A stretch of DNA of 64,000 nucleotides, taken from contig NZ_JRAO01000018.1 of the NCBI RefSeq assembly GCF_000768875.1, positions 1-64,000 on the forward strand. The letters are read 5' to 3'. The notes beneath the pieces are model-generated. The model saw only the letters and a program-made list of their open reading frames with translations, was not told where the DNA came from and ran no database searches. Origin of the DNA: Porphyromonas sp. COT-239 OH1446. Lineage in GTDB: Bacteria; Bacteroidota; Bacteroidia; Bacteroidales; Porphyromonadaceae. This document shows, piece after piece, positions 10,585 to 52,338 of the stretch (positions are counted from its first letter, which is position 1; the number at the start of each line of letters is the position of its first letter). The translations under genes and the position numbers were made by a program.

Positions 10585-11472
10585 GATTATCAAGACGAAA
10601 TGAAGGAAAAAGGTCTGGTTAGTAATTTAAGTATCTATACAAATACAGTCTATAGGATTATCAAGACGCCCAGTAACGTAGTAGGTTTTTTTTGTTGTGC
10701 TTGAGTATCTATACAAATACAGTCTATAGGATTATCAAGACTAAGAAGAGGTGTCCCTTATGGTCTGGGAAGTACTGGTATCTATACAAATACAGTCTAT
10801 AGGATTATCAAGACAGGATCTCGAAAGAGATCGTAGTATCTCCATACGACGTATCTATACAAATACAGTCTATAGGATTATCAAGACTGTTTATCAATCT
10901 GACTTACATCACCATAAAACAAATGTATCTATACAAATACAGTCTATAGGATTATCAAGACTGTGCTCAAAGCCATCTTTTTTAGGGTTATATCTGAGTA
11001 TCTATACAAATACAGTCTATAGGATTATCAAGACAATGAAAAAAAATAATTTTGTTTTCATTTTTGTTTGGTATCTATACAAATACAGTCTATAGGATTA
11101 TCAAGACTTCGTTGCCTTGAGCAAAAGTCTTCCCTACTCCCAAGTATCTATACAAATACAGTCTATAGGATTATCAAGACACAAAAGGAGGCTCAAGTCC
11201 TCTTGCTCGCAAAAACTCTTGTATCTATACAAATACAGTCTATAGGATTATCAAGACTAGTTCAGGGAGGAGGACTTGGTAGCATCCAAGACGTATCTAT
11301 ACAAATACAGTATATAGGATTATCAAGACAGAGCTTTGAGGATTAATTCTTCGTTGCCTTGAGCAAGTATCTATACAAATACAGTCTATAGGATTATCAA
11401 GACCCCATATAATGGGCCAAATGAAACACCAATGCATATCGTATCTATACAAATACAGTCTATAGGATTATC
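10574..11472 (+). CRISPR. CRISPR array, 13 repeats of a 37-nt type and 12 spacers
   Basis: Full 37-nt repeats start at 10631, 10705, 10778, 10851, 10925, 10998, 11071, 11144, 11221, 11293 and 11367. Each begins GTATCTATAC and ends ATTATCAAGAC. The first repeat (10574-10596) keeps only its last 23 nt. The repeat at 11293 has C-to-A at 11312. The last (11441-11472) loses the final five bases of the consensus. Spacers are 34-40 nt. The decayed last repeat and the AUCAAGAC 3' end, which would serve as the crRNA tag, point to transcription on the plus strand with the leader originally on the left, where it is now missing. Spacers at 11108 and 11330 overlap in sequence by 17 nt. Confidence 0.97.
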
Positions 11473-11580
11473 CAGCGGAGGGAGGGTGGGGAGAGGGCGG
11501 TTTTGCTTTTTGTTGAGGCTTCGGGGTTTATATACCATAAACTTAATGCTTGGTGTGGGTGCGCTTTGATATTAAATTGC

Positions 11581-15340: not shown

Positions 15341-15453
15341 TTGTACCCCCTTGGGTGGAGCTTTCGTGGGGGCGATCGCTCGGGTAGGGTAGAGTCTCAA
15401 TTGAGTCCCTAGTGATACCTCCCCAGGCTACTCATTGATCAGATCTTTTCTTT

Positions 15454-15543
15454 CAACTTACAAGCTCATTGACTACTAACTTATCGGATTTTTTCTTGCA
15501 ACTTACAAGCTCATCGACTACTAACTGATCAGATTTTGCGCTG
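15454..15543. repeat. 45-bp direct tandem duplication
   Basis: Two adjacent 45-bp units (15454-15498 and 15499-15543) both begin CAACTTACAAGCTCAT and differ at only a few positions. A partial third copy of the TGATCAGATYTTTT portion lies just to the left. It is intergenic and of unknown function, directly before the 23-bp repeat array. Confidence 0.8.
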
Positions 15544-15562: not shown

Positions 15563-15747
15563 ACTCCTACCGATCTCCCGATCGAGCCCCCAGTTGTCTC
15601 TCTCCTGTGATCCTATCTTGGGCCTCATCGCCGATCCTACTTATATCTCATCGTCGCTCCTACTTGAGCCTCGATGGAGCTCCTACTTATATCTCATCGT
15701 CGCTCCTACTTGAGCCTTGATGGAGCTCCTACTCGTATCTCAATGGA
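15563..15747. repeat. 23-bp-period degenerate tandem repeat, locus B (8 units)
   Basis: Eight units, all 23 nt except one of 24 at 15609. The last five alternate between two subtypes, one with CTTATATCTCATCGTC and one with CTTGAGCCTYGATGGA. This gives a 46-bp higher-order period and implies recent expansion by pairs. The array fills the gap between the metalloprotease terminator and the DUF2723 promoter. No gene is present. Confidence 0.85.
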
Positions 15748-15804
15748 GGGGCTAGAGAGTATGCAGAGGATGGGGTAGGCGAGGGGTGTTTGGCTTTTCT
15801 TTAG

Positions 15805-26117: not shown

Positions 26118-26301
26118 TCCTACCTATCGCACTCCATCAAGCTCCTATCTATGCCTCGATTGAGGCCCTACTTATACCTCGGTCGAAGTCCTACTTATAC
26201 CTCTGTGGCGATCCTATTTATACCTTTACCGAGCCTCTACTTGGGTCTCCACTACATCTCGATCGAGGCCTCTATCGAGGTCCTATCTTAGAGCTCATTC
26301 G
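26118..26301. repeat. 23-bp-period degenerate tandem repeat, locus C (8 units)
   Basis: Units begin at 26118, 26141, 26164, 26187, 26210, 26233, 26256 and 26279, all exactly 23 nt apart. The best-preserved ones contain TCCTAYYTATRCCTC. They occupy the 455-bp gap between the divergent cca and beta-galactosidase genes. The rest of the gap holds the two promoters and no gene. Confidence 0.8.
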
Positions 26302-30663: not shown

Positions 30664-30867
30664 GTGGAGGGAGGCTCGAGCCGCTCCTTGGGCAGTCCTC
30701 TAAGTTTGTTTGCGGACGAAAAATTATCTCTTCAGGCAGTCCCTCAAATTTGTGTGCGCAGAGAAATAAATTTTCGTGCGCACGAAAATTTATTTTCTTC
30801 CGCAAGAAAAAATATTTTCTTCCGCAAGAAAATTAGAGGCCCTTTTTGAGCCCCCCTCCGCCCCTAG
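30664..30867. repeat. Composite intergenic element, copy 1 (two 44-bp units)
   Basis: The element begins GTGGAGGGAGGCTCGA. It continues with two 44-bp units headed GGGCAGTCC or AGGCAGTCC (30690, 30734), a perfect palindrome centred on TCGTGCGCACGA, and two copies of TTTTCTTCCGCAAGAAAA (each a hairpin). It ends in CCGCCCCTAG. The same order of parts occurs at 46055-46472. It fills most of the gap between the beta-galactosidase terminator and the DUF5020 promoter. Short frames across it are repeat artefacts, not genes. Confidence 0.8.
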
Positions 30868-30906: not shown

Positions 30907-30914
30907 TATCTTTG
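30907..30914 (+). promoter_or_regulatory. -7 box TATCTTTG of the DUF5020 gene
   Basis: Exact -7 octamer 45 nt upstream of the chosen ATG. It lies in the A+T-rich segment after the composite repeat; no TTG at the -33 position. Confidence 0.5.
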
Positions 30915-44289: not shown

Positions 44290-45939
44290 CTATTTGCCCA
44301 GTCCGCAGGAGCTGCACTTGCTTTTGATCTGTTCGAAGAAGTCATTGCCCTTGTCATCGACCAGGATGAAAGCGGGGAAGTCTACAACCTCGATCTTCCA
44401 AATGGCCTCCATGCCGAGCTCTGGATATTCGAGGCATTCGACCTTCTTGATGCTATCCTGGGCAAGGATGGCTGCTGGCCCTCCGACGCTGCCGAGGTAG
44501 AAGCCTCCGTACTTGTGGCAGGCATCAGTTACCTGTCGGCTGCGGTTTCCCTTGGCGATCATGAGCATGCTACCGCCGTGGCTCTGGAAGAGGTCTACAT
44601 AGCTATCCATACGCCCAGCCGTCGTGGGGCCGAATGATCCGCTAGGCATTCCCTTGGGGGTCTTGGCAGGCCCTGCGTAGTAGATGGGGTGATCCTTGAT
44701 ATACTGTGGCAGGCCCTCACCTCGGTCGATCCGTTCCTTGAGCTTGGCGTGTGCTATGTCTCGCCCGACGATGATTGTACCACTGAGCGAGAGGCGAGTG
44801 GAGACAGGGTACTTGCTCAACTCGGCAAGGATCTCGCTCATGGGACGGTTGAGGTCGATCTTCACCACATTGCCCTCACCCTTTTGACGAAGCTCTTCGG
44901 GGATGAGGCGTGCGGGGTTGGTCTCGAGCTTCTCGATCCAAATGCCATCTCGGTTGATCTTGGCCTTGATATTGCGGTCGGCTGAGCAGCTGACACCCAT
45001 CCCTACGGGGCAGGATGCTCCGTGGCGAGGGAGGCGGATGATACGCACATCGTGGGCAAAGTACTTCCCGCCGAATTGGGCTCCAAGCCCCAGACGATGA
45101 GCCTCGGCGAGTACCTGCTCTTCGAGGGCGATGTCTCGGAAGGCCTGTCCGCCCTCATTGCCCTCGGTGGGCAGGTTATCATAGTACTTGGCAGAGGCGA
45201 GCTTGACGGTCTTGAGGTTTGTCTCGGCCGAAGTCCCCCCGATAACGAAGGCAATATGGTAGGGAGGACAAGCGGCTGTGCCGAGCGAACTCATCTTCTC
45301 GACGAGGAACTTGACTAGGCTCTCAGGATTGAGCAGTGCCTTGGTCTCCTGATAGAGATAGGTCTTGTTGGCTGAGCCTCCTCCCTTGGCAATGCAGAGG
45401 AAGTTATACTCCATCCCATCGACTGCGAGTAGATCAATCTGTGCGGGCAAATTACAGCCCGTATTGACCTCTCGGTACATGTCTAGGGGGACGTTCTGCG
45501 AATAGCGTAGGTTATTCTCTGTGTAGGCATCGTACACCCCGTGTGAGAGGTGCTCCTCGTCGTGGCCTCCGGTGAAGACTTGCTGCCCCTTCTTACCCAT
45601 GATGATCGCGGTACCAGTATCTTGGCAGAAGGGGAGCTGCCCCTTGGCGGCCACCTCGGCATTGCGCAGGAAGGTCAGAGCGACGAACTTGTCATTGTCG
45701 CTGGCCTCGGGATCATGCAGGATCTTAGCGACCTGCTCCTGGTGCTCAGGGCGCAGGTAAAACGACACATCGTGAAAGGCCGTACGGCTCAAGAGGCGCA
45801 GGGCTTCGGGCTCAATGCGCAGCATCTCATGCTCGCCAAATTGCTCTACTGAAACATAATCCTTTGTCAGCAGATAATACTCGGTCTTGTCCTCTCCCAC
45901 GGGGAAAGGCTTTTGATAACGGAAGGTAGGTGTAGCCAT
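44290..45939 (-). CDS. Class I fumarate hydratase (iron-sulfur)
   Basis: Converts fumarate to malate; in anaerobic Bacteroidales it feeds the reductive branch that ends in succinate. The 549-residue product carries both alpha and beta regions of class I fumarases in one chain. Candidate cluster cysteines lie in [19 protein letters not shown] and [16 protein letters not shown], and the [25 protein letters not shown] segment marks the beta part. A Cys-rich tail (KCSSCGLGK) ends the protein. Monocistronic. Confidence 0.93.
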
Positions 45940-45976: not shown

Positions 45977-45984
45977 CAAATATA
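45977..45984 (-). promoter_or_regulatory. -7 box TATATTTG of the fumarase gene
   Basis: Exact TAnnTTTG match 37 nt upstream of the fumarase start codon. Confidence 0.5.
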
Positions 45985-46054
45985 CGAAAACTACCTCGTC
46001 TCCCAGGGTTGTCTGCGGGTGAATTTCCCCTCTTACTCCCGTCTCATGCGAAGG

Positions 46055-46472
46055 GTGGAGGGAGGCTCGAATGGACTCCTTCGGGCAGTCCTCCAAATTT
46101 GTGTGCGGACGGAAAATTGCCCTTCCGGGCAGTCCTCTAAATTTGTTTGCGGACGGAAATTTGCCCTTCCGGGCAGTCCTCTAAATTTGTTTGCGGACGG
46201 AAAATTGCCCTTCCGGGCAGTCCTCTAAATTTGTTTGCGGACGGAAAATTGCCCTTCCGGGCAGTCCTCCAAATTTGTGTGCGCAGAGAAATAAATTTTC
46301 GTGCGCACGAAAATTTATTTTCTTCCGCAAGAAAAAATATTTTCTTCCGCAAGAAAATTTTTTCTTCCGCAAGAAAATTTGGCCCTCTGCGGGCCATTCG
46401 TTATCCGATTGGTTTCTAGTGATTTATGCGAAGCCTCTAAGAGGGCCTTTTGGAGGCCTCTTCCGCCCCTAG
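46055..46472. repeat. Composite intergenic element, copy 2 (five 44-bp units)
   Basis: Same plan as the element at 30664, but expanded. Five units headed GGGCAGTCC start at 46083, 46127, 46171, 46215 and 46259, exactly 44 bp apart and nearly identical. The shared palindrome centred on TCGTGCGCACGA follows, then three TTTTCTTCCGCAAGAAAA-type hairpin copies and a tail ending CCGCCCCTAG. The last bases overlap the rpoN stop codon. It occupies the 529-bp gap between rpoN and the fumarase promoter, and no gene lies inside; the open frames are repeat artefacts. Confidence 0.85.
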
Positions 46473-47929
46473 AGTTGCTTGCGCAGGCGAGCCACGGGTA
46501 GGCGTAGCTGCTCTCGATATTTGGCCACCGTACGGCGTGCCAAGGGATAGCCCTCACGGGCTAAGACCTCCACCAGTTGAGCATCCGAATAGGGCGAGGC
46601 CTTGTCCTCTGTCTCGATGATTCGCCTTAGGGCCTCCTTGATCCGTCGGGTCGAGACCTCATCGCCCCCCTCGGAGGTGATCCCCTCGTTGAAGAAGAAC
46701 TTCAGCGGATACACCCCAAAGTCCGTCTGCACGGATTTGCTATTGCTCACCCGAGAGATGGTGCTGATGTCTAGGCCTGTGGCTTGGGCAATATCCTTTA
46801 AGATCATGGGGCGGAGGTCGAGTACTTCACCCGAGAGGAAGAACTCCCTCTGATGCACCATAATAGCCTGCATCGTCGTGCGTAGCGTGTGCTGACGCTG
46901 GGCCACGGCATCTATGAACCAGCGCGCCCTATCGATCTTGTGCCTGAGGAAGCTCATGGCCTCTCGAGCACCCTTGTTCCGAGAGCCCTCCTGACGCTCC
47001 TGTTCGATCATCTCCACGTACATGGGGCTCAGACGCAGGAGGGGGATCTCTCGCTCTCCGACGAGGGTCAGCTGCAGCTCGCCATCCCGCTCGCCCACGA
47101 TAAAGTCTGGGATATAATGGGCCAATCGATCCTCGCCCTCGTCCGAGGCAATGTTGCCAGGTTTGGGGTTGAGGCGGGAGATGAGGCTGTAGAGTGCGGC
47201 TAGCTGCTCAGCATCTACGCCTAGAGCTTCCCGAAGCTGGTCGAAGCGTTTATTGACAAAGTCCTCATAGTGATGCCGCAGCAGCTCGAGGGCAAGGTGC
47301 GTCTCTGAGTCGCCCTCACCCTCGCCTTTGCGTTCGAGCTGGAGGATAAGGCATTCCCTCAGATCCTTAGCCCCCACGCCAGCAGGGTCGAGGGTCTTGA
47401 TTCGAGCGATCATTGTCTCTAGCTCGGCCTCAGAAGTGTCGAGGCCGACCTTGAAGAGCAGATCGTCCTGCAACTGCTCGATCGAGCGGTCAAGGTAGCC
47501 ATCAGCATTGATGTTGCCGATGATGTATCGGGCTAGCTCTCGCTCTCGTTCGCTGAGGCGGGTCATCGAGAGCTGCTCCATCAGCAGTTCATCGAGCGAG
47601 GGGGCAGAGGCGGCGAAGGGGATCTCCTCCCGGCGGCTCTGACGCTCCTGGATCTCCTGAAGCTTGTAAGCGGGGATGTCGTCTTCGCTGGCATATTCGC
47701 CCAACTCCCAGTCTTGTCCGTCGAGGCCTTCCTGCCCCTTGGCCTCCTCATCTTCTCCGAGGCGTTCCCCCTCGGGGTTCTCTTCGAGGGCAGGGTTCTC
47801 CTCGAGTTCCTGCTCGATGCGTCCCTCGAGCTCAAGACCCGTGAGTTCCAGCATCTTGATAGCCTGGATCTGAGAGGCGGAGAGGTTGGTTGTCTGCTCG
47901 AGACGCTGCTCTTGACCGATCTTATTCAT
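46469..47929 (-). CDS. rpoN: RNA polymerase sigma-54 factor
   Basis: Alternative sigma factor that needs an AAA+ activator. The 486-residue product opens with the Gln/Leu-rich region I (QEQRLEQTTNLSASQIQAIKMLEL), followed by an acidic region II. The core-binding domain, a helix-turn-helix region and the C-terminal RpoN box (ARRTVAKYREQL, residues about 464-475) complete it. No sigma-54 activator gene occurs in the window. It starts 3 bp after murF, so they share a transcript. Confidence 0.95.
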   Translation of the reverse strand: MNKIGQEQRLEQTTNLSASQIQAIKMLELTGLELEGRIEQELEENPALEENPEGERLGEDEEAKGQEGLDGQDWELGEYASEDDIPAYKLQEIQERQSRREEIPFAASAPSLDELLMEQLSMTRLSERERELARYIIGNINADGYLDRSIEQLQDDLLFKVGLDTSEAELETMIARIKTLDPAGVGAKDLRECLILQLERKGEGEGDSETHLALELLRHHYEDFVNKRFDQLREALGVDAEQLAALYSLISRLNPKPGNIASDEGEDRLAHYIPDFIVGERDGELQLTLVGEREIPLLRLSPMYVEMIEQERQEGSRNKGAREAMSFLRHKIDRARWFIDAVAQRQHTLRTTMQAIMVHQREFFLSGEVLDLRPMILKDIAQATGLDISTISRVSNSKSVQTDFGVYPLKFFFNEGITSEGGDEVSTRRIKEALRRIIETEDKASPYSDAQLVEVLAREGYPLARRTVAKYREQLRLPVARLRKQL

Positions 47930-51954: not shown

Positions 51955-52154
51955 ATGCTTCTCTCTGAGACCCGCAAGTCTGCATTAGTATTGTCCCTCG
52001 GATGGTTCTGCTCATTGCTGGGTTCAGAGTCTTGCTACGCTCCCTATCGAAGCCTCTGACACGACCGAAGAGTGAGGACGAACGAGGGCTCCACTGTGCA
52101 TGGATAGCCATCCTGATAGGGGCTCGAGGGAGGCGTTAGGAGAAGCTCCATTTC

Positions 52155-52338
52155 GATCCTATTTATACCTCGGTGTAGGCTTAGATAGGATCGTAAGTGA
52201 GACCCAAATAGGAGCTCCACCACGATCCTACTTACACCTCGATTCAAGTCCTACTTAGATCTCTACGTCGATCTTACTTAGATCTCCATCGAGGCCCTAT
52301 CTGCAACCTCGTCAGTGTCCCTATCTACATCTTCGGAT
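52155..52338. repeat. 23-bp-period repeat, locus D, with inverted units
   Basis: Direct units start at 52155, 52224, 52247, 52270, 52293 and 52316. Between the first and second lies a block (52178-52223) that matches the consensus only on the opposite strand (AGGATCG...AATAGGAGCTCC), so the array contains head-to-head copies. It fills the centre of the 572-bp gap between the divergent rplU and protease genes; the rest holds promoters and no gene. Confidence 0.75.

Follow-up and report, generated by a model that had tools for sequence, protein, structure and literature searches.

Most HU proteins bind DNA with little sequence preference, and they are usually treated as nearly non-specific DNA packers. 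IHF has the HU fold together with a sequence preference, but its heterodimer bends one asymmetric site, which differs from the proposal made below, where each paralogue has 22-bp dyads of its own, arranged in tandem. Among intergenic repeats, the GTAG/CGTC-tagged REP superfamily goes with a RAYT transposase. REP elements resemble the arrays reported here in being short intergenic palindromes present in many copies, but they are tagged at one end (PMC3733652, in excerpt), whereas the present arrays have a strict 22-bp tandem period and a link to genes of the HU_rel family. BldC forms cooperative multimers on tandem DNA repeats, but it has a MerR-like fold, binds direct repeats and belongs to another phylum (PMC5859096, in excerpt).

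The nearest described repeat, as far as the available sections of its description go, is BrickBuilt of Porphyromonas gingivalis, in which a 23-nt unit is repeated in tandem, a variable number of times, at intergenic sites, with a leader and a tail bearing IS5-like 12-bp inverted ends; one copy is listed beside a PF00216 DNA-binding gene (PMC4596501). The arrays described here share the genus and the variable unit number but differ in period and ends: their units are of 22 bp (22 and 44) rather than 23 nt, they are dyad-symmetric, and no such inverted ends were found. In the sections covered, that report proposes no link to an HU_rel operator; it does mention 22-nt tandem repeats in P. gingivalis W83, citing an earlier genome paper, and these match the window-type arrays in period and species group (PMC4596501). 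The open-access literature, mostly abstracts, yielded no description of an operator or sequence preference for HU-HIG or TIGR01201 proteins, and abstracts together with parts of PMC4596501 and PMC5771137 contained none of 22-bp Porphyromonas or Bacteroidales repeats or of self-regulated HU-family operators. The four literature matches to array sequence words were due to chance, and the text term 'HU-HIG' led to a paper on cardiac support. We report here on a pair of repeat loci that are probably (at a probability of about 0.7) dispersed copies of the operator array of an HU_rel/HU-HIG protein, P0001, whose binding is predicted from sequence.

Anatomy of the two window loci

The window analysed is a stretch of 64,000 nt, positions 1-64,000 of contig NZ_JRAO01000018.1 of Porphyromonas sp. 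COT-239 OH1446, whose genome is of 1.96 Mb. The initial annotation had described two loci in it, at 46055-46472 and 30664-30867, as sharing a start, 44-bp units, a palindrome, hairpins and an end, and this proved correct. Both begin with GTGGAGGGAGGCTCGA (46055-46070 and 30664-30679) and end with CCGCCCCTAG (46463-46472, overlapping the stop codon of an rpoN-like gene at 46469-47929 on the minus strand; and 30858-30867), and the 30-kb locus aligns to the 46-kb locus by BLAST with 93% identity over 145 bp (E 3.9e-57). TRF finds 4.7 copies of a 44-bp (2 x 22) tandem unit on the plus strand at 46078-46283 (95% matches), where the second locus has two units of this type, one of them diverged, on the plus strand at 30690-30758; a 25-base pattern of the 44-bp unit occurs at 7 places in the genome, all within the two loci (reversed control 0). 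The underlying layout has a period of 22 bp, in which TTTC and GAAA flank a palindrome-like centre of 8 bp and a 6-bp linker follows, and TRF reports 22-bp arrays at 46289-46378 and 30764-30833. Five dyad units of the form TTTC-N8-GAAA occupy 46275-46376, with starts at 46275, 46297, 46319 and 46341 and then, after a step of 20 bp, at 46361; their octamers are GTGCGCAG, the palindrome GTGCGCAC and three copies of TTCCGCAA. The second locus (30750-30831) has GTGCGCAG, GTGCGCAC and two copies of TTCCGCAA, so that unit number does differ between the loci, as had been noted. The 44-bp units and hairpin cassettes of the earlier description are both present, but they are not separate modules: each 44-bp unit spans two periods of 22 bp, the palindrome and the hairpins follow at that same spacing, and the whole is thus a single periodic array.

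A single mobile element with fixed ends, as first suggested, was rejected, because an exact GTGGAGGGAGGCTCGA occurs at only two places in the 1.96-Mb genome, which are the window loci themselves, and because the inverted repeats of at least 12 bp in 46000-46520 are all internal, with no terminal ones found. The composite ends are likewise common to just these two of the eight arrays in the host genome. A scan of the window against Rfam at gathering score gave no matches, in agreement with the earlier remark that the element was not recognised as a described family.

The 46-kb array has as its neighbours the sigma-54 (rpoN-like) gene and a gene for class I fumarate hydratase, and the 30-kb array is flanked by genes for a beta-galactosidase and a DUF5020 protein. 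The Bacteroidota -7 promoter consensus is TAnnTTTG. A -7-like box, TATATTTG, lies on the minus strand at 45977-45984, upstream of the fumarate hydratase gene (44290-45939), with some 95 bp between it and the first 44-bp unit; another, TATCTTTG, lies on the plus strand at 30907-30914, downstream of the second array, about 75 bp past its last dyad unit and before the DUF5020 gene. Promoter boxes within 100 bp had been claimed, and both distances fit.

The window holds further repeats of other kinds. A CRISPR-like array at 10615-11476 has a repeat of about 36 bp, GTATCTATACAAATACAGTCTATAGGATTATCAAGAC, in steps of about 73 bp. Minisatellites with a 23-bp period and a different spelling (like CTCCTACTTATATCTCATCGTCG) occupy intergenic positions at 2881-2976, 15624-15748, 26150-26225 and 52150-52320, and share their period with BrickBuilt; a 45-bp array lies at 15428-15537.

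Distribution of the arrays

The initial annotation had proposed searching the genome and related species for the unit, and it does recur in both, with unit number varying from place to place. The strict form TTTTCNTNCGNANGAAAA, with at most one mismatch allowed, occurs 24 times in the host genome, in eight places, against none for the reversed control. Of 61 genomes, 13 match the 46-kb element by BLAST, and these 13 belong to two genera of one family; the exact two-unit pattern, sought in the genomes of 84,980 species (a set outside which the window's own genome possibly falls), returned four records, namely Porphyromonas canoris, uenonis, crevioricanis and endodontalis. The bare scaffold TTTC-N8-GAAA-N6-TTTC-N8-GAAA discriminates less well: with at most one mismatch it occurs in 24/38 genomes of the family against 19/38 for the reversed control, which reaches 76 matches in one genome (G019); with no mismatch, across the order, it occurs in 16/295 genomes (up to 92 hits) against 12/295 (up to 15). 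The 76 matches in G019 (P. crevioricanis) are to the reversed control AAAG-N8-CTTT-N6 at a 22-bp step, and are probably another array spelling. TTTC-N8-GAAA arrays with CTTTAG/CAAAAG or ATATTT linkers were seen in four genomes of other Bacteroidales families (G141, G096, G240 and G310), and TTTCCAC...GTGGAAA arrays are present in G025, which we take to be P. gingivalis ATCC 33277.

Between arrays the octamer and linker are highly variable and the 22-bp step is constant. Unit steps in the scored loci were of 22 bp in 441 cases, 44 in 38, 21 in 8 and 23 in 6; this scoring is biased toward 22, yet the loci found by BLAST show a spacing of 22 between 42 of 45 adjacent exact cores. The arrays lean towards convergent gaps (19/66 vs 18/114) and away from divergent ones (9/66 vs 29/114), neither being significant at 0.05, and a gene-context bias, being this slight, was set aside. 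Called ORFs enclosed five of the arrays and had three more at their edges, some of these cases probably being artefacts of the simple ORF caller. One gene, 94% identical over 625 residues between G020 (L111) and G013 (L127), has an array on its 5' side in both genomes. Another, with 93% identity over 981 residues and taken by eye for secDF, is followed by an array in both G014 (L067) and G004 (L096); here the location is conserved and the units differ.

Arrays upstream of HU_rel genes

Genes flanking the arrays were compared between genomes, and most of those shared came as pairs. One gene was singled out by having an array on its 5' side in five genomes (the host, G014, P. endodontalis, P. 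canoris and P. crevioricanis). In the host genome this is P0001 (G000:C27:45247-45753), encoding an HU-family protein of about 165 residues that scores above the curated cut-off of TIGR01201 (HU_rel; E 3.4e-47, 160.5 bits, cut-off 68.6) and above that of PF18291 (HU-HIG; 5.4e-21, 75.4 bits, cut-off 26.2), and so belongs to that family. Its AlphaFold model (pLDDT 81.6) has an HU core and a low-confidence glycine-rich tail, and with it Foldseek retrieved HU/IHF proteins and the Bacteroides protein 4fmr. The family forms a large branch in the Bacteroidales, with up to 16 matches in G025 and 18 in G096.

The array lies directly upstream of this HU_rel gene in the host and in related species, and it is phase-locked to the -7 box. 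Close orthologues of P0001, grouped at a threshold of at least 55% identity set in this analysis, are present in 9 of the 38 genomes searched, as 12 genes in all; by eye, all 12 upstream regions carry 22-bp units, with species-dependent octamers. In the host (L061/L148) the upstream array has a 22-bp lag match of 0.86, and its TTCCGCAA units are those of the window arrays. Lag scanning detected an array at 8 of 11 orthologues (L151/L068 being excluded for runs of N), and the remaining three have in-phase units. For these 12 genes and two from another HU_rel group, the distance from unit end to -7 box was 6-8 bp modulo 22 in 13 of 14, the best TAnCTTnG being chosen where a gene had several candidate boxes; the exception, out of phase, is P. 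endodontalis (L156). Across 37 family genomes, a BLAST match to the window element was found in 7/9 with a P0001 orthologue against 6/28 without (Fisher 0.004). A second HU_rel gene in G014 (L069:11154-12098) has a 12-unit array of mixed octamers on its 5' side.

Many other HU_rel genes own differently spelled arrays of 21-24 bp. When the 300 bp upstream were scanned at lags of 12-40 with a threshold of 0.60 over 66 bases, a tandem array was detected for 38 of 88 HU_rel entries (at least one of them, L155, a gene fragment) but for only 9 of 332 other genes without a known array, a control that includes upstream stretches in coding DNA (Fisher 3e-21). The lags of the 38 were 22 (27), 23 (6), 21 (2), 24 (2) and 18 (1), placing 37 at 21-24. 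Ascertainment affects part of this first set, since it was an array that led to P0001; without the 11 tested orthologues, 30 of 77 entries still pass. In a stricter control of intergenic gaps 6 of 89 pass, all at lag 22 and all in array-rich genomes. A further set from other Bacteroidales families was picked on the TIGR01201 score, without regard to arrays, though two of the genomes, G096 and G059, did contain the scaffold; genes with less than 120 bp upstream were dropped. In this set 17 of 48 HU_rel genes pass, at lags of 22 (9), 21 (6) and 23 (2), against 0/20 canonical-size HU genes (Fisher 0.0015) and 3/50 other ORFs (Fisher 0.0003). By the same test, 50/88 and 31/48 HU_rel entries have no array. 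Although the spellings are quite different, column permutation shows dyad symmetry at p<=0.05 in 30 of 37 arrays. Array similarity tracks HU_rel protein similarity (Mantel r 0.49, reached in 0 of 2000 permutations), and across five genomes the dispersed arrays fit best to the HU_rel array of the genome in which they lie, the identity pairing being the best of 120; common descent can contribute in part to both results. Taken at the level of sequence, this suggests that each HU_rel relative recognises a private DNA address.

Not every array has such a neighbour. No HU_rel gene was found in 30 loci (overlapping, hence fewer distinct sites) with the CTNNAG-linker arrays of P. uenonis and G013, nor beside the arrays of G020, G025, G096 and G141 in the stretches examined, nor adjoining the TTTCC-type arrays of one relative, presumably P. 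asaccharolytica, in the loci examined. Two array types, TTTCC and CTNNAG linker, are thus without an HU_rel partner in these loci. Such arrays may be served by another protein or by a distant HU_rel gene, or they may be relics.

Competing readings and a proposed mechanism

These partnerless TTTC-N8-GAAA arrays would suit a different DNA-binding or nucleoid protein that reads the 22-bp step, for example as phased A-tracts bent to one face, with HU_rel genes as mere targets; so would a period that stays while array sequences vary widely. We consider this unlikely, since a general factor would not predict that array spelling follows the HU_rel protein, nor that canonical-size HU genes have no array in 20 cases. 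It is still less likely, in our estimate, that the arrays are a neutral or selfish, MITE-like minisatellite spreading in intergenic DNA and standing before HU_rel genes incidentally. The varying unit number and the flanks common to the window loci do show that copying has occurred, and the genus offers a precedent in BrickBuilt, where a MITE contains a 23-nt minisatellite (PMC4596501, in excerpt). However, the window locus has no inverted-repeat ends, and chance fails to explain the excess of 38/88 over 9/332, its replication in other families and the fixed phase to the -7 box.

The arrays might instead act as RNA, in the form of hairpin strings at transcript ends that serve as bidirectional terminators or stability elements. 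The dyad symmetry of the units and their non-significant leaning towards convergent and away from divergent gaps are what such a role would give, and pairing is in excess at dyad positions 8 and 4 (z 7.1 and 4.3), which leaves room for a hairpin role. Most other positions, however, pair at or near the level of reshuffled half-sites, so that covariation as a sign of hairpin selection is weak except at those two; the 22-bp step is kept regardless of sequence, and at HU_rel genes the arrays sit upstream of the promoter box. We regard an RNA function as the most improbable of these alternatives.

On the reading we favour, the arrays are probably operators through which HU_rel proteins control their own genes. 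One dimer would then occupy each dyad, and hence one every two helical turns; with units so spaced, the proteins would line up on one face of the DNA, allowing cooperative binding. At the protein's own promoter the last unit would cover the -33 region, so that binding would repress transcription and more protein would mean less transcript. The arrays would have multiplied through unit duplication and segment copying and, in Porphyromonas, have spread to other intergenic sites, the window loci among them. Those at 46055-46472 and 30664-30867 could then be additional sites for the protein, serving to titrate it, to give the chromosome local structure or to tune promoters close by.

A wider picture, which we put forward tentatively and with the odds slightly against it, is that HU_rel/HU-HIG proteins throughout the Bacteroidales form a diversified set of chromosome proteins with sequence specificity, each of them having a private address, a 22-bp dyad repeated in tandem as an operator before its own gene. 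Protein and address would change together, and some addresses would be broadcast along the chromosome to give nucleoid domains or regulons specific to one paralogue. If this is true, a large branch of Bacteroidales HU proteins has readable operators, and its regulons would therefore be predictable and testable. Some intergenic minisatellites known from Porphyromonas might be accounted for in the same way, and there would be a natural set of matched protein-operator pairs in which to follow the gain of sequence specificity by the HU fold.
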